A stretch of 64,000 bases of DNA, taken from positions 29,642,492-29,706,491 of the forward strand of contig NC_056004.1 in the NCBI RefSeq assembly GCF_018446385.1. The letters are read 5' to 3'. This DNA comes from Zingiber officinale. Taxonomy: Eukaryota > Streptophyta > Magnoliopsida > Zingiberales > Zingiberaceae. The position numbers and the translations under genes are program-made. Positions 16,491-61,108 of this stretch are shown here, piece by piece (within the stretch, counting starts at the first letter, position 1; the number at the start of each line of letters is the position of its first letter). Under the pieces are notes generated by a model, which saw nothing but the letters and a program-made list of their open reading frames with translations, was not told the origin of the DNA and made no database searches.

Positions 16491-17607
16491 TGTTGGTGCA
16501 GTTAGCACTAATGGTCTAACTTAGGTTTTGATGAATGACAAAGTAGGTTATGTTAGGTTTGTTGTGATCTAACACTTTGATTGAGTGTGCAGGAGAAGTC
16601 CATATAGGTCGACGGGCTGACCGGATATCTGGCATGATGCCCAGTTAGGTCGATTGACCGACCGGATAGCTGGCACGAAGCCCAGCTAGGTCGACAGGCC
16701 GATCGGATAGCTGGCACGAAGTCTAGCTAGGTCGACGGGCTGACCGAATAGTTGGCACGAAGTCCAGACAAGTTGACGGACTGACCGAATATCCGGTAGG
16801 TAAGTTAAGGTAAGTCACTGGAGGGGAGTGACTTGGTGAGGACGTGTTCCCCATTCGAGGGAACAGTAGGTGTCGATCCAACTTAGAACCATTTCGGGAA
16901 TCTAAGTTGAGATCGTGATTAGATTCTATTCTCGGTGAGACAGAATCTAATTACTACTTTGTTTGAATATAATTGTGCTAACACTTTATTTTACAGGGTA
17001 GTATAAATTGTATTTTGCCTCAGACTAACATTTTCTTGCAAGAAAACGGTGTGCTGAAAAATGATGGTCCGGGCACTCAGAAGGGATCCGAGCGCCCGGA
17101 TGGTTCGAGCGCCCGGAACTGGTCTAGGCGTCCGGAAGGCAAATCTTATCTCGACAGCTTGGAGCGCGTTGATTGGTTGGCTGACGTCACGGTCCAAGCA
17201 CCCGGAAGGTATCCAGGCGCCCGGAGCACTCCTATAAAAGAAGGCCTCTACCAGAGCTTCAACAACAACTCTCTTTTGTGATTGCTCTCGTGTGCGCTGC
17301 TTCCAAGACGCTCTTGCTACACTGCGAAACCTCTCCGACAACTAGTGATTAAGTCTTTATTTTCTTGTTGTCGGTATTTTCATTCTATAAATTCTTATAC
17401 TTATTATGATTTATTCGTAATTGCCCAATGAAAGCACTCTCACGTGTGGGCCTTGGAGTAGGAGTCGTCCAAAGGCTCCGAACCAAGTAAAATTGGTTTG
17501 TGTTAGCATTGTGACTTTTATCTTTCCGCTGTGTACTTGATTTAATAACGGATTTTTTAACGATCGCTATTTACCCCCTCCCCCTCTAGCGTTTTCACAA
17601 TCTAACA
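16491..17607 (+). mobile_element. Solo LTR E1 (Copia-type), inside the Gypsy solo LTR
   Basis: It starts TGTTGGTGCAG, ends ATCTAACA, and is flanked by ATATA (16486-16490 and 17608-17612). The U3 has 40-45-bp hairpin units (CCAGCTA..TAGCTGG) at about 16610-16800. Palindromes of the type CCGGGCGC..GCGCCCGG follow at 17080-17225, then a TATA box CCTATAAAAG at 17231-17240. No coding sequence is present. Confidence 0.88.
17231..17240 (+). promoter_or_regulatory. TATA box of solo LTR E1
   Basis: CCTATAAAAG directly follows the palindrome array. The same arrangement is seen at 19256 (A1), 22289 (C), and on the minus strand at 2639 and 12871 (A2), 34990 (E2), 50995 (I) and 56977 (H). Confidence 0.7.
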
Positions 17608-19568
17608 ATATAGATCGTCCATTCAAGATTAAGAGAGATCTGAGTCATCCGTCAAGGATCTGGTCCATCCAAGCCAAGGGAAGTAGATCACAACCATCAA
17701 TCAAAATCCAGAACTTTTAATCTAGATCTGAATTGATTTGACCGTAGATCAAGATCCGAAGTATTCTAGACCATCCATTCAGATCTGAGATGAGTTCAAA
17801 TGAGAAGCTACAGTGGGTTTCTTTTCTTCGTCAAATGCTACAGTACTAGCGTCAAGAAACAGGGGGCGATCGCGAGCTTGCTCCAGCGATCTCGATCCCT
17901 TCCACCACCGGCGAGCAAGTGAGGTCAAGGGTGATTCCCTTCCTCTGGTCATCATCCGTCTTCAACTCGGCGACACCACCTCAACCATCTGAAGCCAATT
18001 TTGCCGCGACTTTGTGCGAGGAAGAAGAAGCAAAGAAGGTGGAGGAATTTGGTGGTTTCAGTCGATTCCCTCTCCTTCCGGCCAGTGATCTTCTTCCCTT
18101 AAGCTTCGCACCCATCTGAACCATCAAACGTGTTTGCTTCTGATTCCTCTGATTTCTCCACCATTTCCAGCCGCGAGCTATTCTTCTTCTTCCCTAATCG
18201 GTTCTGAGACGAGAGGAAGAAGGCTGGAGTTACGAAGGAGATAGAGGTTTACCATTTCCTTTGAAATTCTATTCTGTCATTCCATCATCTCCCGCATCCA
18301 TCTCTCTGATTGAATCTCTGCCTGATCATCATCAACGTCAAGTTATTCTGCTCAATTCTGATTCGATCTTAGCATGGAGAAGCCCTAGCTTGGTTGTAAG
18401 ATCCATTCTGGAATTTGATACTTCTTTGATGTATTGATTGCTTACTTGTGTTCATGTTTTAATTCTGGTATTAATTCATTGTTGGCTGAATTGTAATTGA
18501 CTTGAATTCCCCATGTTCTAGATTTTATGTATCTGGGTATGTTTTGAGAATGCTTTCATGATGAAATTTCTCAACCATTTGTGTTACTCAGATTGTTGCA
18601 TTTAAGTTCATTAAATTCTTGTAATGCTTTAGTTAGTTGAGTGCTTATTGTTTCTTTGATGCTTGTTCTTCATGTAGGTGCAATTAGTTTAGATCAGATT
18701 AGGTTCTGTTAAATGATATAAGTTTCTTTTGTTTAATTCTTTAGGATCATTAAATGCTTTATTCTCTCATGTTGTCTTTCCTGTTCTTCTATTATAGTCT
18801 AAGCTAAGTTAGGTTCTTGTCACGTGCATTGCTTTTCATTTCTTAGTCTTAGAATCCAAAACCTAAACTCCCCATTTAAACTTCAAAATACCAAGTAATA
18901 ACAAATCAAACCTAAGATATCATGCACTAGCCACATTCATTGGGAGACGACTCGAGTCATCTCTATGCTACAGTAGTATAGAATGAATTAGGTCACTTAA
19001 TTCTTTTGATACACATTTCACGACAAAATTATGATTTATCACACCTTTTTGGTGGAAGGCGCCTTCAATCTCTTGAAATCTCCTTCACGCCTTTATGGAA
19101 GGCGCCTTCAAACCTTTAAAGGAGCCTTCGACTGGGCAAACAATAACCGTTAGCGAAGATAGAGTTTATCTTCACACGGATAAAACTTGCCACGCTGGAG
19201 GCACCTTCAAGCCTATTGAAGGCGCCTTCTAGTCTCGAATAGAATTTTTCAGGGGCTATAAAAAGACCCATGGAGCTAAAAAATATTCAACAACTCAAGT
19301 ATTCATTTCCTAGTAACTTTCCAAGTTATTCAACGAGTGTAAGAGGCTTCTTCGCCTTCACCAAAGGAAATCTTTGGTGCTTTCTTTTATCTTGGATTAA
19401 CAACAACCTAAGTTGTAACCAAGTAACTTTTTTTACCTCTTTATTTTATTAGTTGTTAAATTGCTTTAAGTTGATTGTGCTACTAATGTTGTTTGAAAGA
19501 TTTAGAAAGGTCCATTTTAAATTTACAAGCAATTTACCCCTCTCTTACCGGCCGCACGGGTCATAACA

Positions 19569-20550
19569 ATGATCCTACCCTATTTGTTAAAATCATAGGA
19601 AAAGATATCTTTGTGGTCCAAGTTTATGTAGATGATATAATCTTCAGGTTAACCAACTCTAAACTTTTAAATGAATTTACCGGATTAATGGAAAATGAAT
19701 TTAAAATGAGCCTTGTAGGTGAATTAAATTTCTTCTTAGGTTTACAAATAAATAAACATAGGATGGAATTTATGTTCGCCAAAATAAATATCCTAAATAA
19801 CTAATTAAAAATTTTAAAATAGAAAATGCCAAAGAAATAAAAACTCCCATAGCAACAAGTATAAAAATTGATAATGACTTAACAAGAAAAGATGTTGATC
19901 TAAAATACTATAGGAGTGTAATGGGTAGTCTCTTGTACCTAGCTGTAAGCCGATTATATATATATATTGCAATAAGAATGTGCACAAGATATTAATCTTG
20001 TGCAAAAGAGTCTCATCTAACCTTGACTAAAAGAATCCTAAGATATATCAAAGGAACCCTAAATGTAGGAATGTTGTCCCCTAGGACAAATAACTTAAAT
20101 TTATTAAGGTACTCAGACTCAGATTATGCTGGTTGTAAACTAGATAAAAAATATACAAGTGACGGTTGTCAAATATTAGGTTAATGTCTAGTCAGTTGGA
20201 GTAGCAAAAAGCAGCACTGTGTCGCACTATCAACAATTGAAGCTGAGTACATAGTACTAGTGGAATGTGTTTCTCAGTTATTATGGATGATGCATACACT
20301 AAAGGACCTTCAACTTGATTTAAAAAATATCAAAATCTTAATTGACAATATAAGTTCAATTAATTTAACAAAAAAATCTAATTCAATACTCAAGGACCAA
20401 ACATATATAAATCAAACGCCACTTCGTTAGAGACCATGTAGCTAGAGGTGAAATTTTACTTGATTATATTGAATCTAAGTCAAATCTAACTGATATCTTT
20501 ACTAAACCTTTTCCCGAAGTTGAGTTTAGTCTACTCGACAGCTAGGAATG
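19569..20550 (+). pseudogene. Element C: Copia reverse transcriptase / RNase H remnant
   Basis: The stretch begins inside the RT palm domain immediately after the A1 LTR. The catalytic box YVDDIIF is at 19625-19645, followed by KMSLVGELNFFLGLQI. After several stops and frame changes the RNase H part is recognisable (SDSDYAGCKLDKKYTS near 20110 and STIEAEYI near 20230). Upstream pol and gag lie beyond the A1 insertion, off the window. The protein copied element RNA into DNA; this copy cannot. Confidence 0.85.
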
Positions 20551-21473
20551 TGCTTTATAGATAAGTTTTTTTTATATAAAAAACTATTTATTAAGTAGTT
20601 TATTTTTTTTTTCTTCTTTTCAATTTGGACTTAGCCTAGGTCCCCCCCCCCCCCACCAAAAGCATGATCTATAGATTTAGACAGCCAACATCTCACAAGC
20701 ATATTAGGATTACCTTGTTTGTATATTGAAACACTTAGAATGGTGTGAGATTTAGGATTACCTCAAGTCTGAATTTTATATGTTTATATCAGTGCATTAT
20801 CATAAATCTAGGCTAAAAATATCAACTCAAATTGATCAAGTTAAATAATCCTTCATAGCAAACACCTAGTTGAATATTTTACTTAACGTGACTAATCAAG
20901 TGAAAACTATATTATTTCTGGAGGTCAGCTAGTAGTTAAACGTTAGACATTTTTTAAAGGACTAATTTGTTTTTTCATGTTTGGATATTAGAGATGAAAT
21001 TTAAAAAAAAAAGTTTTTTAAATTGTTTTTTTCTCAAATTTCCTTAATTTTTTTTTTAATTTGAAACCTTGCTTTTTCCATAATTTTTACTTCAAAATTC
21101 ATTCCCTTTTCAATTTTTTTTCCCCTTCTCAAACTATTAAAAAATAGTTAAACTTCTAATTCTCAGTTTCTTTTCAAAATGACTATTTAAAAGGTTTTTC
21201 ACCTTATATATATATATTTTTATATGTGGCAAAGGGGAGAGAATAGATAAGTTAAGTAAACAAGTTAAAAATCTCTTACATGTATTTAAGAAGAGATATT
21301 AGATTAAGGGGGAGAAACAAAATGCATTTATGTTATTCAATATTTTCCTAAGTTATCTTTTATCTCCTTAAATTATGATGCTTTAATTTTTCAGTTATTT
21401 ATCAAGTCCCTAAATTCTTATGCTTTAAATTTTAAACTAATACGATATTGCCACTAATCAAAAAGGAGAAGAT
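20551..21473 (+). other. Element C 3' non-coding region
   Basis: AT-rich, with a run of 13 C at about 20642-20654. The segment around 20685-20715 (CCAACATCTCACAAGCAT) has its reverse-complement counterpart in element H near 59160-59180. A polypurine tract (AAAAAGGAGAAGA, about 21460-21472) ends it. Confidence 0.6.
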
Positions 21474-22740
21474 TGTTGATGCAGATTGTATCATACGATT
21501 GAACTTGAGGTTTTGATCTTGGCAATAGGTTCAAGTTAAGTCTTATAGTTTTCTAAAATGTTGATTGAGCTTGCAAAGAAATCCTAGTTGAGACTAGACA
21601 AAGGAAATTCTAGTTGCGGCTATACAATTAAGTCCTGGTCGGAGGTACTAGGCGGAAGTCTTGGCAGATTGACGATATTGGGCTGGAAGTCCTAGGGGTT
21701 GAGGGCACCTGAGGAGAAGTCCTAGGGGTCTTGAACACCAGGTGGAAGTCTAAGCAGATCGAGGGCCGAAGGTTTAGTGAAAAGTCCCAAGGGTCAAAGT
21801 CAGACTAAGTAAAAGTCCAAGTAGGAGGTAGACCAAACTTGACATCTGGTAACCTCTCTTGAGTGAAGTGGTGAGGATGTGCTCTCGAAAAGAGAGCAGT
21901 AAGCATCGATCCAACCTAAGATCTCACGGGAGATTTAAATTTAAGATCAGACAACTTAGAGAGCTGTTAATCATAATTATATTTATGTATTGTGCTAACA
22001 TTGTGATATAGGAAAGCTAATTAATGAAGAAAGCTAGAAAATGGGATCCAGGCGCCTCTATCATATTCAGGCACCTAGACTATCCAGGCGCCTCTATCAC
22101 ATCCAGACGCTTGGACTATCCAGGCGCCTCTATCACATCCAGGCACATGGACTATCCAATCGCCTCAAACATATCCGGGTGCTTGGACTATCCAAGTGTC
22201 TCAATCATATCCAAGCGCTTGGACCAAAAGACTTATTACAACGACGGGATCAAATTAGATAAGGGTCAATCCAGGCGCTTGGATCAGGCTATAAAAGAAG
22301 ATTTCGATCAGAACCTTCTTCACTCATTGCTTCCTCGCTTTAAGCTATATTACACTTCTGAAATAATGATACTCTATTGTGATCAAACATCAATGAAGCA
22401 ACAACGACACAGCATCGCGACAATTTCAAATGAGTCTAGCTTTTGGGAAACATTTAGTTGTTGCATTTCTATTCGAATTTCTTTCAATGCTAAAATTTCT
22501 AAGGGTTAGTAGTTTTGTTACCAAACTCCATATTTATAAAAGAAAACGGATTGATAGTGATTGTCCAACGAAAGAGGTCTAACTGACTATGGGCATTGGA
22601 GTAGTAGTCACGAGGCTATGAACCAAGTAAAATTTTCGTGTTCTTATAATTGTCTTTTTAATTCCACTGCATGACTCTGTGGTATTTTAAATGATTTATA
22701 AACATGTATGAAGCGTGATATTCAATCACCCCCCCCCCCC
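21474..22740 (+). repeat. 3' LTR of element C
   Basis: It starts TGTTGATGCAG after a polypurine tract. The U3 has AAGTCCTAGG-type units (21590-21830), palindromes with cores CCAGGCGCCT and CCAAGCGCTTGG (22045-22285) and a TATA box at 22289-22297. The right end is uncertain; a run of C at 22728-22740 is where LTR-like sequence stops. Confidence 0.7.
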
Positions 22741-23544
22741 AATATTTAAAACTCTCAGTTCCGGACAAATCGTTATCTCCTATCTTAATAATTGTCGCAT
22801 TACGTCTAATATTACTAAACTGAAATTAGATTCTAGTTTAGCATTTACTCTTTCACATATTTCATTTATCAAAATAATATATGCAAACAATATACACCAC
22901 GGTACTATGTCTTGAATATATATAATAAATTCGTCTATAATTAGTATAAAAAAATAAAGACTTAGAATACATATAGACTTAGAACTAATTCTTAATGTAA
23001 CCTTATCTTTATTGAAAATACAATAACTTTACATGAAGTCTTTATTCTAATCGTTACATCCTCATACATATTTATATTCCTATAATTTATACAATTTTAT
23101 ACGTCTTTCTTATATTTATAAAAAGAAACTATAATACTTACCCGATTAAATTTTTTTTTTTATTTTAATACCATATTAAATAATTTTATAAATTATTTTA
23201 TTTTCCTAACAGTTCACCTGCTAACAAAGAAACAAAAATTATTCATGAATGATGACATAATATTTTAACAAAAAATCAATACTAAATGGCGTAAATGTTT
23301 TTTAATAGTTAGCGTAGTTTCTTCAATACAAACTTTATTTTTTATCCAAAATGAATCTTAATTAAATATATAAATCCTAGAAAAGAAAAGGATACGATCA
23401 ACATGCAAAGCCAAATAAATAACATTCACCACACAGCCAACTCGACACGTTATTGAGGCATTGATAATTTCAATTTTAACATCCAAAATTCTTTAAGCAA
23501 CAACCAAATATAGAAAGGAAGATAGCACATCGGTTCATAACTGC
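22741..23544. other. AT-rich intergenic stretch
   Basis: No gene or clear repeat is seen. The right-hand part should contain the 3' untranslated region of the eIF2-alpha gene; no canonical AATAAA is obvious on the minus strand. Confidence 0.6.
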
Positions 23545-30013: not shown

Positions 30014-30795
30014 GGCTGCATTTGGTATGGTGTAATCTGCCTTGTAATGTAATGTAATCTGGATTACAAAATGTAATGAAGTTTTGTAATCTGGATTACA
30101 AAGCAAACACATTATAATCCGATTACATTACGAGATCACCTTTTAACAAAAATTTGAATGTCAAATATACCCTTAGTCTATTGTCGCTCATCTTCGCTCG
30201 CCGCCACTGCCACCGCCCCCCGGCGGCAGGCGCCGGCGACTTGCGACCAGCAATCGCCGGCGACAGGCGACCGGCCACCGCCGGCGGCAGGCGACCGGCG
30301 ACCGCCGACGGCCGGCGACCGACGACCGACGACCGCCGGCGGCAGGCGACCGGCCACCGCCAACGGCCGGCGACCGACGACCGCCAGTGGCCGACGACCG
30401 GCGCCCGGCGATCACCGGCGACCGACGACCGCCAGTGGCCGACGACCGCCGACGATCGACCGGCGACCGACCGCCAACCGACCGACGACGGCTGGCTGCA
30501 GCCGCGACGCCCGGTGATGGCCGGGGACCGATGACAGCGGCCACTGCAAGCTCCGACAGAGATGTCGCGTTCGTCGATAAAAGTCATAGGATATTTTTAT
30601 CATTTTATAATAATACGAATTACATTCCTTATAAAAATAATGGACACCAAACAAAAGAATGTAATCATCTTTGTAATCAAAGATTACATACATTTCATTA
30701 CCAAATATAGTAATGTAATCAAGATTACATTACATTATATTATAAATTTGATTATATTATGAACTCAATTACATTACGTCCAACCAAACATAGCC
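30014..30795 (+). mobile_element. Harbinger/Tourist-like MITE upstream of eIF2-alpha
   Basis: The ends are GGCTGCATTTGGTATGG and, inverted, GGCTATGTTTGGTTGG. They are flanked by TAA on both sides (30011-30013 and 30796-30798), the duplication typical of PIF/Harbinger. The outer parts are rich in TGTAATCTGGATTACA-like subterminal repeats. The centre is a GC-rich minisatellite. It lies 246 bp upstream of the eIF2-alpha ATG and so within or at the edge of its promoter. Confidence 0.85.
30190..30540. repeat. GC-rich minisatellite inside the MITE
   Basis: About 350 bp of degenerate units built from CGGCGACCGACGACCGCC and CCGGCGGCAGGCGACCGG. It is open in nearly all frames on both strands, which reflects its composition and not a protein. 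The surrounding sequence is AT-rich. Confidence 0.85.
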
Positions 30796-34600: not shown

Positions 34601-35254
34601 TGTAAGATCGAAAAGCACTAGAGGGAGGGATGAATAGCGTGTGTCGCTTTTTCACTTTTTTTGAAAATTATGAGTTAGAGCAACGAAAATAAGAGAAAGA
34701 AAAACAAGACTAACACAGGTTGATTTTACTTGGTTTGAAGTTTTCGACAACTTCTACTATAAGGATCACACTCTTCGAGTAATTTTATTGAGCAATCCAC
34801 TAATAGCTCAAATTAGAATACAAACATTTAAGTACAAGATAATAGACAAATTATACCGACAATAAAGTATAGTAGTAACTTGAGCATTGGTTGTCGAAGC
34901 AACATTTCAATGTCATAGAGAGTTTTTCAAAACAATACGTGAGTATAAAAGTTGTAGCAATTGATATATGAAGTTGTTAGTTAAAGCTTCTTTTATAGGC
35001 TTTTCTAGGTGCATGGACCACCTCGAGCACCTCCATTGATGCATATCAGATTTACCTTCATCGTTGAGATTACCCCTCTTTGGGTGTCTGGATTACTGAT
35101 TTGGATGCACCTCAGTGAAGCTCTATCCAAGTCACATTTATCCCTTCTTAGGCGCCTGGATGATGAGATAAGCCAGCCAACTAGCATCTGCCAACTCATC
35201 TGCTCGTGAAGCTGGATTCAGGCCATTCCGGACGCTTGGATCTTGTCCGGTTGC

Positions 35255-36945: not shown

Positions 36946-37425
36946 GTTGCCCGGACGTTCAAGCGCTTGGATCCCTTTTGGGTGCTTAACTTTGATTTCC
37001 TGTAATACAGAGTTAGCAAAACAGATATAATATGAAATATAAGTATTAAAATATTTAGACAGTTTTGGGATTGTCCGATCTTGACTTTGTATTTTACTAA
37101 AACCTTAGGTCAGACCGACGCATACTGTTCCCTCAATGGGGAATGCGTCCTCACTAAATCTCTCCCCTCCAGTGCTTACCTCCACTTACCAATTGCATAC
37201 TTACTTAACTTTAATCTCTTGACCCACTAGGTTTTCTTACTAGATGGATCATTTGGACCATAGTTTGTAGAATCACGATCCTACACCAAATCAATTTAGA
37301 GTCAGGATCAGATCGGTCGTGATCAGATCGTAGAATCGTACGATCCTACGAAAACCCCTTAATTTTAGTATACATGATTAATAATTAGACAAAATACCTA
37401 AAAACCCATTTATATATAAATAGAT

Positions 37426-39350
37426 TGTTGGTGTAATATCCCTAGGTCAAGGTTGACCTGGTTGACTAAGCTTGAGTTGGCTCAAGTTTGAGTCTTGATG
37501 TTTGGGTTTTGATGTTTGACAATACATGGAAATTGCAGATGCAATCGTCTATTTGGGGAGATTATTGATACAATTCCCCTCTGGTTAAGGTTGACCAGTC
37601 AGATGTGAAGAAGAGTCAAGTAGGTCAAAGGATTGACCGGATACTTGACTGAGAAAGTCCTAACTGGAGGTTAGGTAATTGAAAGTCCCGGTGAGTGAAG
37701 TTAGGCAGGTAAAAGTCCCAGTGAGTGAAGTCAGGCAGTGGTGAAAATCCTAGTGAGTGAAGTCAGGTGGAAGCCCTAGTGAGTGAAGCTAGGTGAAAGT
37801 CTTGGTGAGTGAAATCATGCAGATGGAAAGTCCTAGTGAGTGAAGCTAGGTAGAGTGAAAGTCTTGGTGAGTGAAGCCAGGCAGGGGAAAGTCTCGATAA
37901 GTGAAGTAGGTCAGTGGAAAGACCTGGTGAGTAAAGGAAGACACGAGGAAATCCAGATAGGTCAAGGGTGACCGCACATCTAGTGGAAGGAAGTCCAAGT
38001 GGGTTATGGAGGACTAAACACTTGGCACGAGATGGTAAGTCCAAGTGGGTCAAGGTTGACCGGACACTTGGTGCGAGGAAAAAAAGGCCAGATGGGTCAA
38101 AAGTTGATCGAACACTTAGCGGTCGTAAGTCCAATAGGGAGTTGGCATGGAACTAGAAAGTTTGGACGTAGTAAACTTTCGAAGGTCATAACTTTTGACT
38201 CGGATATCGGAATGAGGTGATCTTGGATGCGAAATGAAGCTCATTTCAAGCTCTACACATTTTTTTACTACCAATCGAGTTGCCAATCGATTAGGGGGTT
38301 CAATCAATTGGTCAATCGATTAGTTGACATGATTTTGTGCAAAAATTGATTAGCCAATCGATTCAGAAGCTCACTGTTCACTCAGAAACTCTCCCAATCA
38401 ATTGACCAATTGATTGGAGAAGCTTTGATCGATTACCCAATCGATCCAAACTATTTCTGCATAAAATCATGTCAACCAATCGATTGAACTCGTAAATCAA
38501 TTGGCAAGTAGAAAAATGTGTAGAGCTTGAAATGAGCTTCGTTTCACATCCGAGATCATCTCATTCCGATATCCGAGTCAAAAGTTATGGCCTTCGGAAG
38601 ATTATTACGTCCGAACTTCCTAGTTCCATGCCAACTCCCTATTGGACTTACAACCGCTAAGTGTTCGATAAACTTTTGACCTATCTAGCCTTTTTCTCCT
38701 CGTGCCAAGTGTCCGGTCAACCTTGACCCACTTGGACTTACCATCTCGTGCCAAGTGTTCGGTCCTCCATGACCCACTTGGACTTCCTTCCACCAGATGT
38801 GCGGTCACCCTTGACCCATCTGGATTTCCTCGTGTCTGCCTTTACTCACCAGGTCTTTCCACTGACTGGCTTCACTTATCAAGACTTTCCCCTGCCTGGC
38901 TTCACTCACCAGGACTTTTACTCTGCCTAGCTTCACTCATTAGGACTTCCCATCTGCCTGATTTCACTCACCAGGACTTTCACCTAGCTTCACTCACTAT
39001 GGCTTCCACCTGACTTCACTCACCAGGATTTTCACCACTGCCTGACTTCACTCATCGGGACTTTTACCTGTCTGACTTCACTCACTGGGACTTTCAACTG
39101 CCTAACCTCCAGTTAGGACTTTCTCAATCAAGTATCTGATCAATCCTTTAACCTACTTGACTCTTCTTCACATCTGACTGGTCAACCTTGACCAGAGGGG
39201 AATTGTATCAACAATCTCCCCAAATAGACGATTGTATCTGCAATTTCTATGTATTGTCAAACATTGAAACCCAAACATCAAGACTCAAACTTGAGCCAAC
39301 TCAAGCTTAGTCAACCAGGTCAACCTTGACCTAGGGATATTACACCAACA
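37426..39350. repeat. 1.9-kb inverted repeat of LTR U3 sequence
   Basis: The left arm (37426-38340) and right arm (38459-39350) are reverse complements over about 900 bp, separated by 118 bp. Each arm is the U3 part of a TGTTGGTGTAATATCCC-type LTR with AAGTC..GTGAGTGAAG..CAGGCAG minisatellite units and CAATCGATTG palindromes near the centre. Right of the right arm, CAATCTCCCCCTTTTTGATG (39349-39368) is a minus-strand polypurine tract, so that arm is the true end of an element and the left arm is an inverted copy. Confidence 0.88.
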
Positions 39351-40258
39351 ATCTCCCCCTTTTTGATGTTTGATAATACCTTTAAGTTAGGTTAATCTCA
39401 TAGCCTTAACTTCCTTTCATGCTAAGGCATGAATGAGGGTTTCCTTCATTCTCTCCCTTTCCTAGAAGATAAACTTCCTCTTTCGGTAATGAAGGCCTAA
39501 AACCCTACATAGATAAATAATTTTGCATCTATATGCAATCATTTACACCCAACACCTCATATTACATTATTACATGTATAAATTTAAATTAATCAGTAAT
39601 TTAACTACCATTCTTGTATAGTAATAATATTTATTTTCCATATCATAAAACAAAAGAAAATAAAATTTTTATTAACACAATAATAATAACACATTCAACT
39701 TCAAAAATATTTCTTTGGTTTATATGATGATCCAATTTAAAGGTCAACAAAACACTTAATGTATATAACAGAAGCTATTGAATCCTTTGATTCAAATATG
39801 AACGCCGGAAAAAATCTTCTAAAGACTGGTTGATGCCACACAATATTAAACAATAGGCATCTAAAAACTCATCATTTTGGAAAAAGAAATGATAGAATAT
39901 TATTGATAAATAACTAACTCAAAAATAATTAAACATATGTTTAAATAATTTAAAATCCTAACAAGATGAAAAAAAAGATAAAATCTTCCGAGCATTCGAA
40001 AATAATTTAAATGATATTTTTGCGATTTGAAATAGGGTAGTTAAGGATAAACTTTGAAATTTATTAAAAATCTCTAAACGAGCTTTAATTTGATATATCA
40101 TAAGCTTTGTGGTTCAATTTGAGTCAAAAGTTATAACCTCTCAATGTTTCCACTGATCTTGCTCCGATCCTGTTACGATCCTACCGATCCTGCTACGATC
40201 CTATGACAAAAATCAAGTATGTACGATCCTGGATCGATTTTGGGTTTCCGGATCGTAG
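39351..40258 (-). other. Internal non-coding remnant of an LTR element and hAT sequence
   Basis: AT-rich remnant of the element whose LTR is the right arm of the inverted repeat, followed by the hAT element's own repeats. No gene is seen. Confidence 0.5.
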
Positions 40259-43748: not shown

Positions 43749-44689
43749 TGCATTTTCAAATTCTTATTATTTATTGTTGTACATCGGCTTCCTGGTTATT
43801 TCAATTTGTAGTCTATATCTTTTTGAAGAAAAATTTTATTATCATCTTCCTTTTCTTCCGAGACATCCTCATCAAATTATTCTTTCAACACCTTTTCTTC
43901 ATCGGTCTCAAATCTTTCCATACCGTGGTGGTCATATCCTTGTTGATTTTCTCCAATCTATATTGATACGGGTTTTGATGAGATAACTCGAAAGATGATG
44001 TGGTAAAAGGAGTCAAGATGACGGGGCAGTCAAAGTCAAGATGACGGATCAGTTACACTTGAAAAAGAGTAATGTCCCCTCATCTGGCATGGATCAGTCA
44101 CATAGTGCTAAGCTTCTTAGATTCCACTAGATCAGGTTATAATCCTGTCATGGAAGGATGATCAACCCTTAAGCCGAGCAAACCAGGGAGTCTGGTGTCT
44201 CAGGGCCGGCTAGATTTTAAGGTGACCATGAGCAAAGCCGGCTGACCTTAAGGGCCGACTAAAACGATTGACTCATTCCACAACAGACCAACTACTGGCA
44301 GACGGAAGGTAGGCAAACTCATTGGTAATAAAATCAGACAGACTTATATGTGCTGGTCGTACAAAAACTAGGGTAGGGCAAATACAACCCAGCTTGATAT
44401 GTTGATCAAGGCTCTCAGAACGAAGTGGGTCTTCTCTAGATAACTTATCATACGCTCAGTCAGGTAAAGGGACGATCGGACATATGACACTTATACTTTT
44501 ATTACTATTGCCTGAACGGAATTCCAACCCAACATATATTATTATCAAAGAGATGATGCACTCTATCATTCTCCAGTGAGTATATTAATGCTGCATAGAA
44601 CATGATTGAACGGTTTAATATGATGTATAGCAGTGGAATATATAGAATGCAACTGAATAACTTAATAAAAGAGACTGGCTTAAGGATCG

Positions 44690-45160
44690 ATCGAATATAT
44701 TCAGACAACAATATCATCTTAACAAAGCTACTAGCTTAAGGACCGGTCGGATTATATTCAGCAAATTACATCAGCTTAACAGGGAAGATGGCTTAAAGAT
44801 CGGCCAAGACATATTCAACAAACTACATCAACCTAACAGGGCAGCCGACTTAAAGACCGACCGAGACATATTCAATAAACTACATTAACCTAACAAGGCA
44901 ACCAACTTAAAGACCGACCGAGACATATTCAATAAACTACATCAACCTAACAGGGCAACCGACTTAAAGATCGGTCGATACATATTCAGCCAACAACTTC
45001 ATCTTAACAGAGCAGTCAGCTTAAAGACCGACCGAATTATATTCAGCCAATGACATCATCCTAACAAGGTGGCCAGCTTAAGAACAGACTGGATTGTTTT
45101 CAATTGACAATATCATCTCAACAAGATAGTAGACTCAAGGGTCGACTGAATGATACTCAG
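44690..45160 (+). repeat. 57-bp tandem repeat in G
   Basis: The phrase ATATTCAA recurs at 44811, 44868 and 44925, exactly 57 bp apart; flanking units are more diverged. Confidence 0.85.
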
Positions 45161-50100: not shown

Positions 50101-50116
50101 TTTATGGTTGTGAAGA

Positions 50117-50357: not shown

Positions 50358-50373
50358 TTGTATGGTTGTGAAA

Positions 50374-50612: not shown

Positions 50613-50616
50613 TGTT

Positions 50617-52258
50617 TATCCCCAGGACTATGGTGTAGGATCGAGACGTACTAGGGGGTGAATAACACTCATAACTTTTTTCATTTAAAATCAATCGGAG
50701 TAAAACACAACGGAAAGTAAAGAACACAGAACAAGGACACCAAGGATTTTACTTGGTTCGGATCCTGTGACGACTCCTACTCCAAGGTTTGTATATGAGA
50801 GTGCTTTCAATGAGCAATCAATAATAAATCGGAAGATTACAAGTACAAGTATTGTAATAAAATAAAGTTTACCGACGACTTGGAAAGTTGGATCTTTTAC
50901 GTAGTCATTGTCGGAGTAGAGTTATGGCGTTGCAGATTCATCTTTTGAGCAACACGCACATGAGAAGATCATTCTGAATGTGGTCGAGGCCTTCTTTTAT
51001 AGTCGAGTTGAACCTAATTCAAATCCATTGATCTCGGAATCAAGTTTGACTCGACGCTGATCGGTCGACCGATCCCCTTGATCGGTTGATCGAACCTTCT
51101 AAACCTGCCCAACTTCACGTCTAGATTCTGCCGCTTAAGATAAAGCCTTCATTCGATCAACTGATCCCACCGTTTGGTTGACCGATCCAGCTGTGCTTGC
51201 TGGCTTATCTGGTTCGATCAACCTTGTCTAAAGTTTACCCATCGTTCAGTCGACTGAACCTGAGGTTTAGTCGACCGATCCCTTGGTCCAAACTTCACTT
51301 CGAGCTAGAATCTGATCTGTTTGCTTAGGGGTTCGGTCGATCGATCTGGACATTTGGTCAACCAAATAGAGTAAAAATATGAACCTATAAAATTGTTAGT
51401 TTCCTACAAAACAGAGTTAAAATAATAGGCGAATAATATATAAAAAGTAACTTTGACAGTCTTCGGACTGTCCGGTCTTGACTTTGAGTTTTGCTAAAAC
51501 TCTAGGTCGGACCAACACCTACTGTTCTCTCTTCATGGAATGCATCCTCACCTACTTCTCTCAGGAGAGTTTACCTTTTGCAAGACCGGTCCTCCAGACC
51601 GTTTGAACTTTTGCTCAACGTCCAATACGTCAAAACTTCATGCTGAATGTTCGATCCTGCCCCGTTCAGTGTTCCCCTGGTGTTCGTGATCTCCAGAATT
51701 TTCACCTAGAGTCATCGACTTTAGAATTTCACCCAACGTCCTCAACCCGCCAAGACTTCAACCAGTCCCTTGAACCAGGACTTTGTTGCCTAACCGTAGC
51801 TAGGACTTTCCATAACCTAGGGTTACCCCCTATAACCTAGGGTTACTTCCCTCTAGGGTTTTCTACCTGCCTAGAATTCACTAGGACTTTTGCCTAAGAA
51901 CACTTAGGACTTTTCTACAAGTTCAGTCATGTTTGTTAAATTACAAGACATCTTAACTTTTGAACCTTTTGTCATTATCAAAACTCAGGTTCGATCGTCT
52001 GATGCTCCCTGCACCAACATATGGTGCAGTGGTATGGGCGCTCAGTTGTCTCCCAGGCACTCACGGTTCGATTCCCAGTTATGACATATTTGTAAGGATT
52101 TTTCTCCAAATGAGACTTGCAACTAAGAGATGCTGGGCTTCTGGGTTGTCCACTGCAAGTGCTTCCTGATTTACCCTAGTGGTCAGTAGAAAACTTCTAC
52201 AGGATGGGATCAATCATCCCAGGCTCGACGTTATCTAGGCTAGTTAATCACTTTTTTT
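50617..52258 (+). mobile_element. SINE family II, split by a solo LTR
   Basis: The first 17 bp are at 50617-50633 and the rest at 52025-52258 (TGCAGTGGTATGGGCGCTC.., B-box GGTTCGATTCC). The interruption is the solo LTR with target duplication TATGG. Confidence 0.82.
50634..52019 (-). mobile_element. Solo LTR I inside a SINE
   Basis: The insert is 1386 bp. On the minus strand it starts TGTTGGTGCAGG and ends CGATCCTACA, flanked by TATGG (50629-50633 and 52020-52024). On the minus strand the U3 has hairpin units, then palindromes around TCGGTCGACCGA (51055-51370), then a TATA box (50995-51003). No coding sequence. Confidence 0.88.
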
Positions 52259-52271
52259 ATATAGTTATGAA

Positions 52272-54289: not shown

Positions 54290-55156
54290 AAGACTAAAGA
54301 TTCTATTGTGTATGAATTTTTAGTTCCACATTAGAAATTGTTTGACTTTATTCTTGGTTTAAATTATGACACATACATTGATATAATAAACATATGCATG
54401 GGGAGAGACTCTCATGAGTGAGTGCACAAGGGTGAGTGTAAATCTAGAGTTCGGATGGTATTGAAGCAAGGTTGACTTGTGTGCGAGCACCACCTACTCA
54501 TGTCAAATGCTAGTCGAGATAAGATTTGCTCAAGCGAATCCAATTGAAACTGTCGATAATTAATGGCAATAAATGGTCGTTAGTTCATTCAATTGAAATA
54601 TTAATCAGTCATTTATTACGACCAAAGGTTGAACCCCTATATAAGAAGCTCAAATCTTGTGTAGAAGATATAGAGCGACCGCCTGTGTTCTCCCAAAAAA
54701 CTCTCTTAGTCGTGCATCAGTTTAGCTGAACTATTCGTGATAGCACCCGGATACATTCTCAGTTCGCTACAAACAACAGTGCTTGGTTGCATGCATGATT
54801 TTATAGTTGTATCCTAGGAAATAGATGACCCGAGAGAACTTTGAAGCACAGCCGGAGGTGGGGCGAATCTGATTCAAGGAAACTACGTTTAGTGTATGCC
54901 TCAGTATCTTACTCAGCGAATTCCCTTCCTGACTCGGCGATCAACTCCCGATTCTGCTATGCACCTCATCAACTCCGCAACTCGGACCATCAGAAGCTTG
55001 ACAGAACCAGCTCCGCTAGCAGCTTGAGATTATTCGCTCAAGTCATCTTAACATATAAGTTAGAATTGATTTTGTATAATTTCAATTCAATAATTTTCTT
55101 TAATATCTCTAGCAACAGATTGTCCAATAATCTTGAAATAGATTTTGTTCTATTGA
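54290..55156 (+). repeat. Probable 5' LTR of Copia element J
   Basis: A TATA box CCTATATAAGA lies at 54636-54646, followed by a leader. GATGGCTACAGAGCAAAG at about 55156-55173 is a decayed tRNA-Met primer site, after which gag starts. The left end is not defined. Confidence 0.55.
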
Positions 55157-55197
55157 GATGGCTACAGAGCAAAGTATTGATTACCCCGATTGAAACT

Positions 55198-56035
55198 ATG
55201 TCAATCAACTACGGAGAAAGGCTAGAGAAGTTCACTGGATTAAACTTCAAGAGGTGGCAGCAAAAGATGTTCTTCTACTTGACCACGCTCAATCTGGCTT
55301 GGTTCTTGACCGAGGACTCTCCCAAGTGTATTGAGGATACTAATGCACAAACCATCAAGCATGGACTCACTCTGAGTTTTTTTTTTGCCAAAACTATATC
55401 CTCAACTGCCTTGTCGACTCGCTATACGTTGTGTATAGCACGAAAAGAACGATTAAGGAGCTATGAAAGTTCTTGGATAAGAAATACAAGATAGAGGATG
55501 CAAGAGACAAGAAGTTCATTATGGGCCAATTCCTGGACTACAAAATAGTTAACTCCAAGACGATGATCAGCTAAGTCTAGGAACATGAGATCCACTTAGA
55601 AGGAATGATTCTGAGTGAAACTTTCCAGGTGGCTGATATCATTGAGAAGCTACCTTCCAAGTGGAAGGACTTCAAGAACTACATGAAGCACAAGCGGAAT
55701 GAGTTGAATGTGGAGGAACTCATTGTTAGACTTCGCATCAAAGAAGACAACAAGAGTTCAGAGAGAAAGTTATTCTCTCAGGATACTATGAAAGCCAACA
55801 TGCTCGAACGCGGTTAAAACTCAAAATGGAAGAACCTCAAGAGTCAAGACTTCCAAGATGGGACCCCCAGAGGAGGCATTAAGAAATTCTCTGGGAAGTG
55901 CTTCAACTGTGGTCGAGTCGGTCACAAATCTTCAGAATGCAGAAACTCAAAGAAGAAGCAAGAGGTCAACCTGAACGAGGGACCAGAAATGGATGACCTC
56001 TGCATTGTTTTTGAGTCAAACAGAGTTGAACTGTC
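55198..56035 (+). pseudogene. Element J: Copia gag, decayed
   Basis: It starts MSINYGERLEKFTGLNFKRW, a typical Copia gag N-terminus, with a frameshift near 55375 and a stop near 55575. A later open part (55605-55817) has [16 protein letters not shown] and [12 protein letters not shown], the UBN2-type gag core. One zinc knuckle, CFNCGRVGHKSSEC (about 55906-55947), keeps all ligands. It encoded the capsid/nucleocapsid protein of the element. Confidence 0.82.
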
Positions 56036-56516
56036 TAAAAATGAAATGTTTGCAGGAAGGAGCTATATATCTGATGGGTTGTTCAAGCTCAATATAATGG
56101 TCATTAGGCCTAAAATAAATAAAGATGAAAGCTCTTTTACTTATGTGCTTGAGTGTTCATGTTTGTAGCATATTAGACTAGGACATGTTAACTACAATAT
56201 GTTGTGTAAACTAATAAACATACAAGCATACCTACATTCCACCTTGACCCAAAATACAAGTGTGAGATTTGTGTTAAAGCAAAAATGACAAAGTCATCAT
56301 TTCAACACGTTGAGAGAAGTAATGAACCACTCGGGCTAATTCACACAGACATGTGCAACCTCATAGGTACACCAACACGTGGTGAGAATAAATACTTCAT
56401 CATTTTTGTAGATGATAACACAAAATATTGTTATGTGTATCTTCTCAAAAGTAAAGATTAAGCTATAAAGAAATTTGCTCTCTATAAGAATGAGATTGAA
56501 AACTAACTTAATAAAA
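56036..56516 (+). pseudogene. Element J: GAG-pre-integrase and integrase start
   Basis: Recognisable are GLFKLNI, HIRLGHVNYNMLCKLI (zinc-binding HHCC region near 56170-56215), a KSSFQHVER stretch and LIHTDMC..ENKYFIIFVDDNT (start of the integrase core, near 56335-56425), in changing frames. Protease is missing. It is cut at 56516 by element H; the rest must lie beyond the window. Confidence 0.8.
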
Positions 56517-57972
56517 TGATAGATCGGATGCGAGCGATAGAGGGGGGGAATGAATATCGCTTCTTTTAAAACTTTAGTTTATCTTTTAAAACATAAAGTT
56601 AAGCAGCGGAAATTAGAAAGAGACATGTTTGTTTACTTCGTTCGGAGCCTAACTCGACTCCTACTCGAAGGCCCGCGGTCCTTGACCGCACCGATGGGCA
56701 AAGCACTATAACTCTTCTTTCCGAAATCCTTTGGAAAGAAGCAAATCGTACAAATGAGCAAGATAGTAACACCCTACTATCTTGCTTAAATAAATTAAGT
56801 ACAATGCAAGCTTATTCTAAAATAAAGTATACCAACAATGATTTGAAGATGAATCTTGGGTCGATACTTCCGGACGGTGTGAGCTTGCTGAACTGATGAA
56901 GATTTGTAATGCGTGTTGCTTGCAGAAAAGAATTTGAGTCAATCAGAAAGTTATCCTGGCCTCAGACTTCGAGCCCCATTTTATAGGCCTTGGGCGTTCG
57001 GTCGACCGATCCCACTGTTCGGTCGACCGAACCCGCTCCTTCCTTCTTTCCTGGCTGGAGTCTGACACTGGCTCGATCTCTGACATTAACTGATCTTTAA
57101 TGGTTCGGTCGACCGATCATGTCTTTCGGTCGACCGAACAAGCTTTTTTCCTTATTCGTTGCAATATGCCGAGATCTTTATTTATTGCACCATTAATGTT
57201 GATTGGTTCGGTCGACTGATCCCTGCGTTCGGTCGACCGATCGACTTCTTTTCCTTTGTTGCTGATCGGCGTTGATGAACTGGCTGAGCTGAGTCATCAA
57301 TGTTCGGTCGACCGATCTTACTGTTCGGTCGACCGATCAAGCTTTGATCGGGCTCAGACTATGTTCAGGTTTGATCTGAATACTGAACTGAATTTGCTTG
57401 GTTCGGTCGACCGATCAAGTGGTTTGGTCGACCGATCAAACAGAATATGCAAAACAATGTTAAGCAACACACCCTGCAAAACCAAGATTAACATAGTAAT
57501 AAAAATGCATGAGTAATATGAAAGACAGTAAAATTGTCTTGATCTCAAATTGGAAACCTTTCCGATTTCTTCAGTTGGATCAACGACCTAAGGTTGCTCC
57601 CTTCGGGAACCCGACCTCACTGTCGCTCCTCCAGTTTGTTTACCTCAACTTACCTGCCAAACTTTGATCCTCCAGATCTAGTTTGGACTTTTCACTAAGC
57701 CTTGATTAGCTCCCCAGGACTTTTCTCTTGATCTTCGGTCCTCCAGACCTCTCGATCACACTGCCAAGCTTTGGGTCCCCTCGACCTTCTTGGACTTGCA
57801 CCTGGGTTCCACGATCTGCTAAGATTTCTCCTGCCTAGCCTCCAACTAGATTTTTCCCGGTTGAGTAAATATCTTGCACAGTCAGTCAACTTGTTAGATC
57901 ATAACAAGACTTAACTTGAACCTTTGACAACATCAAAACTTAGATTTGATTCTGGTGCAACTTGCACCAACA
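56517..57972 (-). repeat. 3' LTR of element H
   Basis: On the minus strand it starts TGTTGGTGCAAG and ends CGATCTATCA; to its right a minus-strand polypurine tract (CTCCCCTTTTTT) shows that the element body extends to the right. U3 hairpin units lie at about 57590-57880, palindromes TCGGTCGACCGA at 56995-57430, and a TATA box (GGCCTATAAAATGG) at 56977-56989. Confidence 0.88.
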
Positions 57973-59519
57973 ATCTCCCCTTTTTTGATGTTTGGCAACC
58001 AAGGTTCAAAGTTAAGTTAAAAATATGTAACAATTAAATAAACAAGCAATTTAACTTTTAATTCTCCCTCTGAGTTAAACAACTCCCCCTGAATTCACTA
58101 TCTCTCCCCCTTTGACAGACATCAAAAATAGGGGAAGACCAACAAACCAAAAGGGTTGAAATGTATAACAATTTTAACCAAGTGCTCAAAAATTACTTAA
58201 AATGAAAAAGTTAAGTTTGATATTCAAAAATGTTTTTTAACTAAGTTAAAATTTGAAAATATTTTGAAAATTTTTACTAACTTAAAAAGCTATAAAATAA
58301 TTTTGAAAATAATAATTTTCTTAAGTTAAACAGATATTTAAAAATTTTACTAAGTTAAAAATAATTTTGAAGATACCATATTTTTTAAAAAATATTTCTA
58401 AGTAAAATATTCTGAAGAGAGTAAAGTTTTACCAATAAAATAATTTTACTAAGTTAAAATTTCTAAAAACAACTTTAAATAAAATGTTTTGGTTCAAATG
58501 TTGGAAATTATTAACACCTTATAAAAATTTGCTAGGTTTATAAAAAGAATACTAATAATCTAGTATAATTAAGATTCTCAAGATATAGTAATTTTGAAAG
58601 GTTTACCAAAGTTTTAAAAAAAATGTTACTAAGTTGTCGGAAAAATATTTTACCTAAGTTTTGCAAAAATAAATTTAAAAGTCTAAAAATATGAAAAATA
58701 AGAATTTTGGAAAAAAAAAATTTTAAAATTTTTTTAATTTAAACACAAAAAGATTTTTCAAAAATAATTTTAAACATTGTTAAAAAAACGAAAAATATGA
58801 ATAAAAATTAGGATTTTCAAAAATGTGAAAAATAAATAGGTCAAGGCTCCCCCTAGAATTGATGACAACCTAAAAGTCCAAGCATGGACAAAAAGACTAA
58901 GGAAAAAGTTCTTATGATGAAATGTCCAACCTTTACACAAAGTTAACTACCATAAGATAGTAGCAATAGACTTAGGTTGGTCAATTTGAGTATTTTAATA
59001 CTAACTAGGTTTTTACTAACTAGTTAACCCAAATTGATTCATGTATGTTGTTTAAAACCCAGATTTATAGCGATGCACTAACATAAGTATCTGAAATCTT
59101 AGGCTAGGTCCTAAGCATCTCACTCATTCTAAGTTATCAAACAAGGGATCCTACTGTGCTTGTGAGATGTTGGCTCCTAGAACTATAGGATCATGCAGTT
59201 CTACGGTAGAACCTAGGCTACTCCAGAAAATTTAAAATATTTTGAAAAAGTTTTGAAAACCAAAATTTGAATAGGGATTTTTACAAAAATAATTTTTGAA
59301 AAATTATAGTAGTAATTTTTCAAAAATAATAAAACCTATTCTATTAAACACAACTAACAAGTATGCAAAAAAAAAAGTAACCAGAAATACAAATTTTAGT
59401 ACAAGGTTCAAATACATAAGTCTGATAGGTCACACTAGTCCAGAAAGACATATAAAGAGTCAGATGTCAGGAGGTGGAGAATCATGGGCAGCACGAAAAT
59501 AGCTAAACATCCTAGTCTG
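57973..59519 (-). other. Element H 3' non-coding region
   Basis: AT-rich, with a polypurine tract at its left end. The part at about 59090-59220 resembles the 3' region of element C in opposite orientation, which suggests H and C are related. No gene is seen. Confidence 0.65.
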
Positions 59520-60733
59520 CTATGCCTCCAACGTCTCTACTCGTCGAGTAATATCCTGACGAAAATCTGTCAGTTGATCCTGAAACATCATTTGAAGAGA
59601 GTCAAAACGACCAAAAATATCATCCCGGAGCTGACTGAATGGATCACTAAAGTAAGGAGGAGGAGCTGTAGAAGAAGTCGCCTGAGCAGCATCAAAGACT
59701 GGAGTCTGGGAATACTCAATAGCTAACGGTGGTATATAGGGCTCCTCTACAACAATAGGGGTGTCCTCAGCATCGACTGCTTCCTCAACCGGTGGAACAT
59801 AGGATGGATGAGTGCACTTGTAAACTAGACTCTGAGAACTAGCCTTAATCCCAGCCAAAGACATTTGTCGAACACCAATGAGGTCAAAATCGGACAACTC
59901 AATCAACTCACCATGGCCAACACCTACTCCTAAGGAGGCTATGAAAGCTGTAAGTATATGATAATGAATCATGTGTACCTTCAACGAGGTATACTATAGC
60001 CAGAGTAGTAGATTATGGATTTAAAAACCTAATAAGCAAAATCTATATCTAGTTTATGCTTAAGGACATACATCAGAAAAAGGTGAACAGGTCGTAGAAC
60101 TGCCTGATCTCTGGATGAAAGAGGATGAATGCATGAGACGACCATTTTGTATAAGGCATTGTCATTCGGGCTTAATGGAACCGAAGAAATTTTCCTTGGT
60201 CAACGACCTTGGAAGAATTCAGCATACATGAGGTCTAGTGTTAGATGAGAAAACGGATCAGGCAAGGTAGCAGGATATGATGGATAAGGAAAGACACGTG
60301 TAGTCGAGGGACACACGTAAAAATCGAGAGAATACATTAAAATCAAATATCATATCCCTTGATGCACCTCTAGTCTTAAAATGATAGACATCAATCTCAC
60401 ACAGATTATGATAAAATTCAGTGCATAGTGTGGGATTATATGCATGTCTACAGAGAACTAGACTGTCTAAGGAATAGTGGTGTATAATATCTACTATTTC
60501 GGGACAGTAGGTTTGATAAAATGGTAGATCAAGGCATCTAGTACCTACAACTAAAAAGGTTTTGTTAGAAAAGGATTGATGCAAGTCCTCTGTGGAGAAC
60601 CTGGGGTCTTGGCTGGGATTGGAGGAACTAGCCTCCTTTTGGGCAAGTTTACGCAGTTTTTCACTAAAAGGAAAATAAAAAATAAGTAAATGTATGATAA
60701 GAAAAGACTAAACTTTAAATCATACCGAGGCAT
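59520..60733 (-). pseudogene. Accessory ORF of element H, resembles plant transposon-protein domain
   Basis: Read on the minus strand, an 8-nt first exon (60733-60726, ATG CCT CG) with a GTATGA donor and a TTTTAG acceptor (60664) can join a frame open from 60663 to 60258. The 62-nt intron is near the plant minimum. Readable blocks are TLCTEFYHNLCEIDV and IFDFNVFSRFL, then after a frameshift near 60300 LSPNDNALYKMVVSCIHPLS and LFLMYVLKHKLDIDFAY. The ORF at 59984-59520 ends with a coiled-coil-like SQLRDDIFGRFDSLQMMFQD. The order recalls the putative plant transposon protein domain (Pfam family named Transposase_32), common in plant retroelement ORFs; its function is unknown. Stops and two frameshifts show decay. 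It lies downstream of gag in the sense direction, behind its own TATA box. Confidence 0.6.
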
Positions 60734-60821
60734 GGTTTGTGAACGCAGAAACTCGATAGATCGCCGGAGATGTGAAGAATAGGAAGGGAAGGTTGTATAA
60801 AGGACTCGAGGTTCTGTGGGT

Positions 60822-61108
60822 GTTTTATAGAGCTTTATCGGTCGACCGATCCAATCAATTCGTCTTCATCCGATGCAAAGGGGTAGATGTTCGGTCGACC
60901 GATACTAGGGTTCGATCGACTGATAAATTTAAGATGGACGGTTTTCCGTGCACCAACCGAGAATGGGTGGAGGGTATTAAAGCTTTCGGTCGACCGAAAA
61001 CAGTTATCGGTCGACCGATAAATTAAGTTTTCATCGATTAAAAGAACTGGTTCAAAAAGGTCACATGGTGATCGGTCGACCGGTAATTTTGATCGGTCGA
61101 CGGATCCC
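60822..61108 (-). promoter_or_regulatory. Internal promoter-like module of element H
   Basis: Seven palindromes of the type GATCGGTCGACCGATC or TTCGGTCGACCGAA lie at 60837-61108, followed in the minus-strand direction by a TATA box GCTCTATAAAAC (60833-60822), 89 bp before the accessory ORF's ATG. The same palindrome core and order are in the H LTR. Confidence 0.65.

Follow-up and report, generated by a model that had tools for sequence, protein, structure and literature searches.

What are the clusters of short palindromes that stand just upstream of the TATA box in several retrotransposon long terminal repeats (LTRs) of Zingiber officinale, and why do their cores differ from family to family? 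The question arises from a 64-kb stretch of contig C19 (NC_056004.1, positions 29,642,492 to 29,706,491; hereafter the window) in a genome of 3.09 Gb. An original prediction, made from this stretch, held that such clusters occupy a kept position in several unrelated families while their sequence changes, and that they form a functional module with no earlier description as a shared LTR design. Our analysis demonstrates that the palindrome arrays are real, well above chance and very common in the genome. Most probably, they represent the repeated-motif (RM) boxes known from the Sireviruses, a Ty1/copia lineage confined to plants; these boxes lie in the U3 part of the LTR upstream of the TATA box and would work through dimeric factors.

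Palindrome arrays in the window and in the genome

The window was analyzed together with 20 stretches of 10 kb (L005-L024), whose positions on contigs C1-C18 were fixed beforehand at round coordinates, a non-random placement, and both were compared with 20 dinucleotide shuffles. There were 10 clusters (4 in the window and 6 in the samples) in which three or more palindromes shared an 8-base centre, and none in the 20 shuffles. The ten include one at L017 and one at 30258 that is a GC-rich repeat outside any recognisable LTR. Counting palindromes that are 10 bp or longer with a GC content of 40% or more gave 232, compared to a shuffle mean of 116 (range 100-137). Two cores absent from the earlier list, GGATCGATCC and CAGTCGACTG, were revealed by the samples.

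Close pairs of one core were then counted genome-wide, with the reversed pattern as control; these repeat counts are possibly lower bounds. The core GAAGGCGCCTTC gave 3,236 pairs versus 0 in the control (gap 0-10). At a gap of 0-30, counts were 46,119 versus 15 for GGATCGATCC, 29,410 versus 7 for CAGTCGACTG, 11,618 versus 54 for CGGTCGACCG, and 9,559 versus 0 for CCGGGCGCCCGG. A further candidate, CCAAGCGCTTGG, was discarded as a family core, having only 3 pairs versus 0 at that gap.

In the best-sampled families, the arrays end near the TATA box, and the core differs by family. At family-A loci, [CT]TATAWA follows a box within 150 bp in 29 of 44, and the nearest box lies 32 bp before the TATA in 15 of these 29. 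The same motif follows a box within 150 bp in 20 of 22 CGGTCGACCG loci, at a distance of 19 or 64 bp in 14 of the 20. A control from random positions, on one strand and over 100 bp, gave the motif in 6.4% of draws, a rougher figure that is not like for like. In L089, which holds CAGTCGACTG doublets, the last box stands by eye about 16 bp upstream of CTATAAA. Apart from L005-L024, the loci were picked for holding a box pair and are therefore uninformative on the share of LTRs without boxes. L027 and L028 overlap L026; they were omitted from the spacing and TATA-distance counts and used in the flank test, where identical boxes were collapsed.

The TATA box itself often lies, as judged by eye, between short complementary arms that are lineage-specific (GGGG/CCCC, CCCC/GGGG, GAGGC/GCCTC, AAAGC/GCTTT). 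Examples are found in A, E2 and CGGTCGACCG loci (L032 248-397, L053 186-335, window 34980-35010).

The arrays and elements of the window, which are nested and broken, are as follows.

19055..19229, plus strand: A1 array, with three perfect GAAGGCGCCTTC boxes (19055, 19098, 19218) and two boxes with 2 mismatches
19256..19262, plus strand: A1 TATA box CTATAAA, about 32 bp past the centre of the last box
12546..13449, minus strand: A2 5′ LTR, in which the GGCGCC boxes are decayed; TATATAAA lies at about 12880, poly-C at 12580 and the junction CAATTGGTATCAGAGC at 12550
2313..3216, minus strand: A2 3′ LTR, with a polypurine tract (PPT)-attachment site before it at 3226 and a single perfect box, TGAAGGCGCCTTCA (2804-2817)
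11869..12501, minus strand: Ty1/copia gag fragment of A2 (Retrotran_gag_2, E 7.6e-15)
56998..57435, minus strand: H LTR array, ten boxes (at most 1 mismatch) forming five doublets of 21 bp each
56980..56986, minus strand: H LTR TATA box CTATAAA, about 18 bp past the array
57971..57982, minus strand: start of the H 3′ LTR, with a Sirevirus-type PPT and AT/TG attachment site one base from the published octamer
51055..51370, minus strand: I array of 7 near-palindromes, with CTATAAA at 51002
22046..22224, plus strand: C, a 36-bp tandem repeat with GGCGCC-like boxes and one perfect palindrome (22210-22223), and CTATAAA at 22289; weak
17080..17225, plus strand: E1, boxes resembling CCGGGCGCCCGG, with CTATAAA at 17232; not above shuffles
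35000..35250, minus strand: E2, with CTATAAA at 34998; not above shuffles
4719..5044, plus strand: 5′ LTR boxes GATCGGTC-N4-GACCGATC of an inner Sirevirus-like element, whose primer-binding site (PBS) junction is at 5543
8296..8463, plus strand: linker of the inner element, with GATCGGTC-N4-GACCGATC boxes upstream of PPT copies at 8577, 8594, 8618, 8943 and 9110
10065..10390, plus strand: 3′ LTR boxes of the inner element, with TATAAG at about 10450 (by eye)

Each region was assessed by counting 12-mers with at most one mismatched pair (near-palindromes) and comparing the count with 500 dinucleotide shuffles and with 500 equally long stretches at other window positions. The H region held 10 where 1.5 were expected, a count reached in 0/500 shuffles and 3/500 positions, and eight perfect TCGGTCGACCGA-centred palindromes lie at 56998-57414; the core of H is CGGTCGACCG. 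The I region exceeded its expectation of 0.9 (0/500 shuffles, 8/500 positions); its perfect palindromes, at 51059-51074 and 51244-51259, have two cores, CGGTCGACCG as in H and CAGTCGACTG. The excess was least in A1, with 3 versus 0.6 expected (12/500 and 26/500), and there the perfect 12-mers alone numbered 3 versus 0.03 expected (0/300 shuffles). Two near-palindromes each were found in C (82/500 shuffles, 96/500 positions; one perfect, 8/300), in the A2 5′ LTR (36/500 and 86/500) and in the A2 3′ LTR (50/500 and 64/500; one perfect, 10/300), all of them weak results. No excess over shuffles was seen for E1 (2 near-palindromes; 95/500 shuffles, 57/500 positions) or E2 (1 near-palindrome; 302/500 and 216/500). 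Boxes of the inner element were enriched in the 5′ LTR (3/500) and the 3′ LTR (6/500), and its linker boxes showed no excess in the same 12-mer test (102/500). The predicted excess of palindromes over composition-matched sequence is thus borne out for the window and samples together and for H, I and A1, is weak for C and A2, and fails for E1 and E2 taken alone. Because CCGGGCGCCCGG is abundant genome-wide, E1 and E2 may be decayed members of its class.

Sirevirus signals and the published repeated motifs

The elements were next examined for signals of Sirevirus type. The PPT AGGGGGAG followed by AT/TG at the 3′ LTR is exact at 9110 and has one change each at 57982 and 3226; no such site in the window is linked to E1, E2, C or I. 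Several PPT copies lie in the linkers, with four further exact ones beside attachment site 9110 in the inner element and others on the H side at 58854, 58111 and 58090. The 5′ LTR junction, CA/A(T or G)TGG/TATCAGAGC, was found at 12550 (A2), at 5543 (inner element) and in L007, L022 and L002, with CAA(T/G)TGGTATCAGAGC at 5543 and 12550, and the window has no other exact or one-mismatch junction. With at most 1 mismatch, the window and samples hold 8 such places, 7 of which have a run of at least 4 C within 80 bp. The poly-C integrase signal stands near the LTR 3′ end at 12580, 2347 and 56548 (minus strand), in the 3′ LTR of the inner element, and in L014 and L089. All three signals (PPT-attachment site, primer junction and poly-C) are combined in the inner element. 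The two A2 LTRs, each about 0.9 kb, are 92.5% identical in a self-alignment of the window, and 2 of 4 gag or gag-like frames scanned pass the Pfam cut-off.

By these sequence signals, hallmarks of Sireviruses are present in A2, H and the inner element, and the LTR junctions, where readable, are of Sirevirus type; the "several unrelated families" of the original prediction are thus unsupported. Upstream of the junctions, L007 and L022 have perfect same-core arrays, the inner element has imperfect boxes, and A2 has decayed ones. The LTRs that hold CAGTCGACTG boxes in L014 (5903-6473, minus strand) and L089 have poly-C close to their 3′ end.

Such boxes are known from Sireviruses. In Bousios et al. 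2010 (BMC Genomics 11:89, PMC2829016), a palindromic RM is described in 13 of 21 Sireviruses, with at least 8 copies per element, and 8 of the 21 are without it. Most RM copies occupy the upper half of the LTR, a short way ahead of a conserved cTATAWAAg, and CpG islands in the LTRs end on average 37 bp before this TATA. RM types differ by element, 12 of the 13 have a CGG-CCG core, and that of Vitis is CGGTCGACCG; the authors proposed a regulatory role and found no common factor. Since RM boxes before the Sirevirus TATA were described there, the palindrome-before-TATA design is a known Sirevirus trademark and not a new shared LTR design, contrary to the original prediction. The ginger arrays resemble the published RMs in position, symmetry and element-specific cores, and the Vitis core is identical to that of H. 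They differ from most published RMs in that GAAGGCGCCTTC, CAGTCGACTG and GGATCGATCC lack CGG-CCG, which is present in CGGTCGACCG and CCGGGCGCCCGG; by the 2010 account, a CGG-CCG core in Sirevirus RMs is common but not required. The Tnd-1 RM ACAATCGATTGT (Table 3, PMC2829016) also lacks CGG-CCG and shares AATCGATT with palindromes in L007, L014, L015 and L022, a likeness of motif only. Box spacing is fixed here, whereas the available 2010 description reports none.

As cited in later papers (PMC5311732, PMC10760457), work on maize (Genome Res 26:226, 2016) is reported to have found palindrome clusters in the regulatory part of Sirevirus LTRs with rapid change and strong predicted structure, as here, and this palindrome region to be a hotspot of small RNAs and sequence change. 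The small-RNA data are from maize, and the likeness to the window families is one of DNA sequence. The maize palindrome core is CACCGGACNNNGTCCGGTG. A Sirevirus literature search by listings, with the 2016 maize study outside its scope, named neither fixed box spacing, nor a GGCGCC core, nor an identified internal ENV promoter. Features that may be new are the cores without CGG-CCG, the fixed family-specific spacing, an inverted GATAA-TTATC repeat and an internal array with its own TATA box, the last three of which are treated below.

Other repeats were noted around these elements. The inner element, L007 and L022 each have, upstream of their boxes, a minisatellite of about 30 bp (AAAGTCC...GGCA type; window 4102-4500 and 9372-9890; L007 380-620; L022 8900-9400). 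It is present too (37680-37936 and 38836-39103) in a fold-back inverted repeat of about 1.9 kb at 37422-39354 that is 88.8% identical to its own reverse complement. A 57-bp tandem repeat with GACCGACCG motifs is located at 44674-45089, outside recognised LTRs.

Doublet spacing, symmetry and structure

Boxes are frequently arranged as doublets of fixed spacing. Genome-wide, at a gap of 0-30, 10,528 of 11,618 CGGTCGACCG pairs are exactly 21 bp apart centre to centre, and 22,171 of 29,410 CAGTCGACTG pairs exactly 20 bp. Neighbouring pairs (at most 130 bp apart, boxes with at most 2 mismatches) were also counted in the loci: 85 of 184 in the 44 family-A loci stand at 21-22 bp, with 72 distinct spacers, and 82 of 157 in the 22 CGGTCGACCG loci at 21 bp, with 51 distinct spacers. 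Of the 87 family-A pairs at most 40 bp apart that include an inexact box and were not fixed by the search pattern, 51 are at 21-22 bp. Spacings of 19 and 16 were seen among the listed CCGGGCGCCCGG pairs, and often 12 among the listed GGATCGATCC pairs. Because the value differs among families, exact two-turn helical phasing is ruled out as a general rule.

The explanation that we consider most probable is that each box would be the site of a dimeric DNA-binding protein, with doublets seating two dimers side by side. The array would drive the LTR promoter and perhaps also an internal promoter. A core would be replaced across a lineage when that lineage comes to depend on another factor, or as a new box spreads through homogenisation of the array. 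In the VANDAL transposons of Arabidopsis, short motifs are multiplied within a family and change together with a family-specific binding protein, VANC; VANC is encoded by a DNA transposon. Of the roles that the original prediction named for the module, sites for dimeric factors are the leading reading, suggested by position, symmetry and spacing.

Several results weigh against this explanation or its reach. Of the 10 clusters, only 3 have TATAWA within 150 bp downstream, and these all belong to the window; none of the 6 sample clusters has it. The predicted constancy of position is seen in the best-sampled families but not in these samples. In L022 and L014, inspection by eye showed no more than TTTAAA or TATTTAA, and 15 of 44 family-A loci have no TATA within 150 bp of a box in the fetched pieces of 0.5-0.7 kb. 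A same-core array is missing upstream of the junctions in L013, L014 (4199) and L020, and L010 has a single GGCGCC box. Since no Sirevirus junction was found in the window for I, C, E1 and E2, their membership is argued from the boxes. Finally, the spacing varies by family (20, 21, 21-22, 19/16 and 12), which inherited tandem units could explain.

A second explanation, which we regard as rather unlikely, is that hairpins in the U3 RNA are what matters, feeding small-RNA production, as proposed for maize, or serving the element RNA, with symmetry kept for pairing. The small-RNA hotspots in maize palindrome regions, according to the citing papers, agree with it. So does predicted RNA folding: in 6 of 8 hand-chosen segments it is much stronger than in shuffles (z -3.3 to -11.0), the other two being E1 (z +0.35) and E2 (z -0.67). 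Strong folding is, however, expected, because perfect palindromes fold well by construction. Between family-A loci, box flanks differ symmetrically (global permutations 6/2000 at offset 1, 0/2000 at offset 3), but within loci they show little covariation (1163/2000 and 186/2000), so that the predicted matching of half-sites is found between loci and hardly within them. Box-by-box compensatory change as a general feature was accordingly set aside, save for small within-locus excesses at offset 4 in family A (45/2000), at offset 5 in CGGTCGACCG (17/2000) and at offset 1 in the GATCGATC boxes of two loci (9/2000). At offset 2, CGGTCGACCG flanks are less symmetric than chance (0.27 versus 0.47).

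Pairing between the two boxes of a doublet was assessed at the spacer ends, using 40, 37 and 14 spacers from the pair listings, a subset of pairs, which collapsed by strand to 35, 34 and 11 distinct spacers for CAGTCGACTG, CGGTCGACCG and CCGGGCGCCCGG. Position 2 of the CGGTCGACCG spacers pairs in 2 of 34 versus 16 expected, the 11 distinct CCGGGCGCCCGG spacers show no pairing excess, and those of CAGTCGACTG show one at position 1 only (19/35 versus 11.6 expected; 39/5000). A hairpin between the boxes of a doublet is thus unsupported as a selected feature, and because the spacer ends mostly do not pair, protein sites are favoured over such hairpins. On this sequence evidence, protein-dimer sites would come first, and structure would be a by-product usable by the host.

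The inverted repeat GATAA-TTATC, which lies between the box array and the TATA in family A (e.g., L046 247-396 and L086 406-555), behaves differently and argues for the RNA explanation. Its outward paired run across 26 distinct flank pairs totals 79 versus 31.3 expected, with a maximum of 60 in 5000 permutations. In an alignment of 22 rows, both sides had changed yet still paired in 15 cells, versus 5.1 in shuffles (0/500), and the alignment score is 0.251, with 0.011-0.101 for slid versions. Two other measures are weaker (double-change pairs 4 versus 2.3, 28/500; pair types 10 versus 8.1, 50/500), and all of these figures are inflated by the kinship of family-A loci. The alignment comprises 22 of 27 family-A loci with a readable TATA (L039, L040, L043, L073 and L077 have another box-TATA layout); a second alignment comprises 11 of 19 CGGTCGACCG loci, leaving out L026, L049, L050, L051, L062, L066, L067 and L068. 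The repeat may be a separate structural feature with compensatory changes.

It is improbable that the arrays are neutral minisatellites, in which tandem duplication and conversion within LTRs multiply any box present. This account is favoured by unit lengths that are particular to each family, by tandem arrays like the 36-bp repeat of C, and by the tendency of boxes within one locus toward the same flank type. Yet spacers vary while boxes stay, as in the 51 distinct spacers among the 82 CGGTCGACCG pairs at 21 bp, and arrays precede the TATA in the best-sampled families; loci were chosen by box pairs and cores as palindromes, which inflates box conservation and symmetry. Least probable is quasi-palindrome correction by template switching in reverse transcription or replication, perfecting inverted repeats without selection: it would account for the compensatory changes of GATAA-TTATC, but leaves the pre-TATA placement and the fixed spacing unexplained, and the decayed A2 boxes show one-sided changes at the central CpG (GGTGCC, GGCACC).

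An internal array upstream of the H 3′ LTR

A further array of the H core lies outside the LTR, with the following features.

60835..61085, minus strand: internal CGGTCGACCG array; the H PPT-attachment site lies 2.8 kb further downstream on that strand
60824..60830, minus strand: CTATAAA, candidate internal promoter, about 14 bp past the internal array
59520..60707, minus strand: open pieces in the Sirevirus ENV position (60707-60258, 60199-60029, 59993-59520), downstream of the internal TATA

The internal array exceeds chance (2/500 in the per-region test; four perfect palindromes, 0/300 shuffles), and no recognised U5 follows it. The three H-side PPT copies lie between it and the attachment site. 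One of four open pieces scanned gave a weak, sub-cut-off Pfam match to Transposase_32 (putative plant transposon protein; E 0.012), and the others gave none. The segment 59300-60835 had no blastn match in the fetched loci outside the window.

A 361-base query covering the last box, the TATA and 0.3 kb downstream matched 40 places including the window (84-100% identity, 42 rows; the best 40 of 276 candidates), and a query for the H linker end and LTR start returned the best 40 of 2,432 candidates. Among the matches listed, and by matches alone, the order seen in the window (60500-61085 and 57860-58160, minus strand) recurs at 3 of the 39 other places, where a linker/LTR start lies within 3 kb downstream on the same strand. 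The array-to-LTR-start distances among them are 2.36 kb (C4), 1.89 kb (C15) and 0.26 kb (C7), with 2.34 kb in the window; at the C21 place, the nearest listed start is 12 kb away.

In the 2010 Sirevirus paper (PMC2829016), ENV-bearing elements have more RM copies in the linker, mostly upstream of ENV, and an internal ENV promoter was not conclusively identified. The internal H array stands where that paper puts the ENV-linked boxes. The array and its TATA in the ENV position are thus a candidate internal promoter.

Two neighbouring features were noted. A 1.1-kb AT-rich tandem array with units of about 21 bp (61109-62230) adjoins the internal array, and a minus-strand gag-like frame (62989-63828), with a CCHC-like match just below cut-off, lies 2 kb upstream of it, leaving too little room for a full pol.

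A more far-reaching version of the dimeric-factor explanation is possible, though we hold it only tentatively. The arrays would be a lineage-specific palindromic code of doublets near two helical turns, read by a fast-changing dimeric protein; the H module would be used twice, in the LTR and at the internal TATA in the ENV position, and GATAA-TTATC would be kept by structure. If so, a single factor would activate the genome of the H family together with a second gene. The internal array with its TATA offers a concrete place for the long-standing idea that Sireviruses have an internal promoter for ENV. Overall, a very common class of palindromes in a large plant genome now falls into a described category, and five abundant cores with fixed spacing in one genome give ground for asking whether retroelement promoters switch factors while they diverge.

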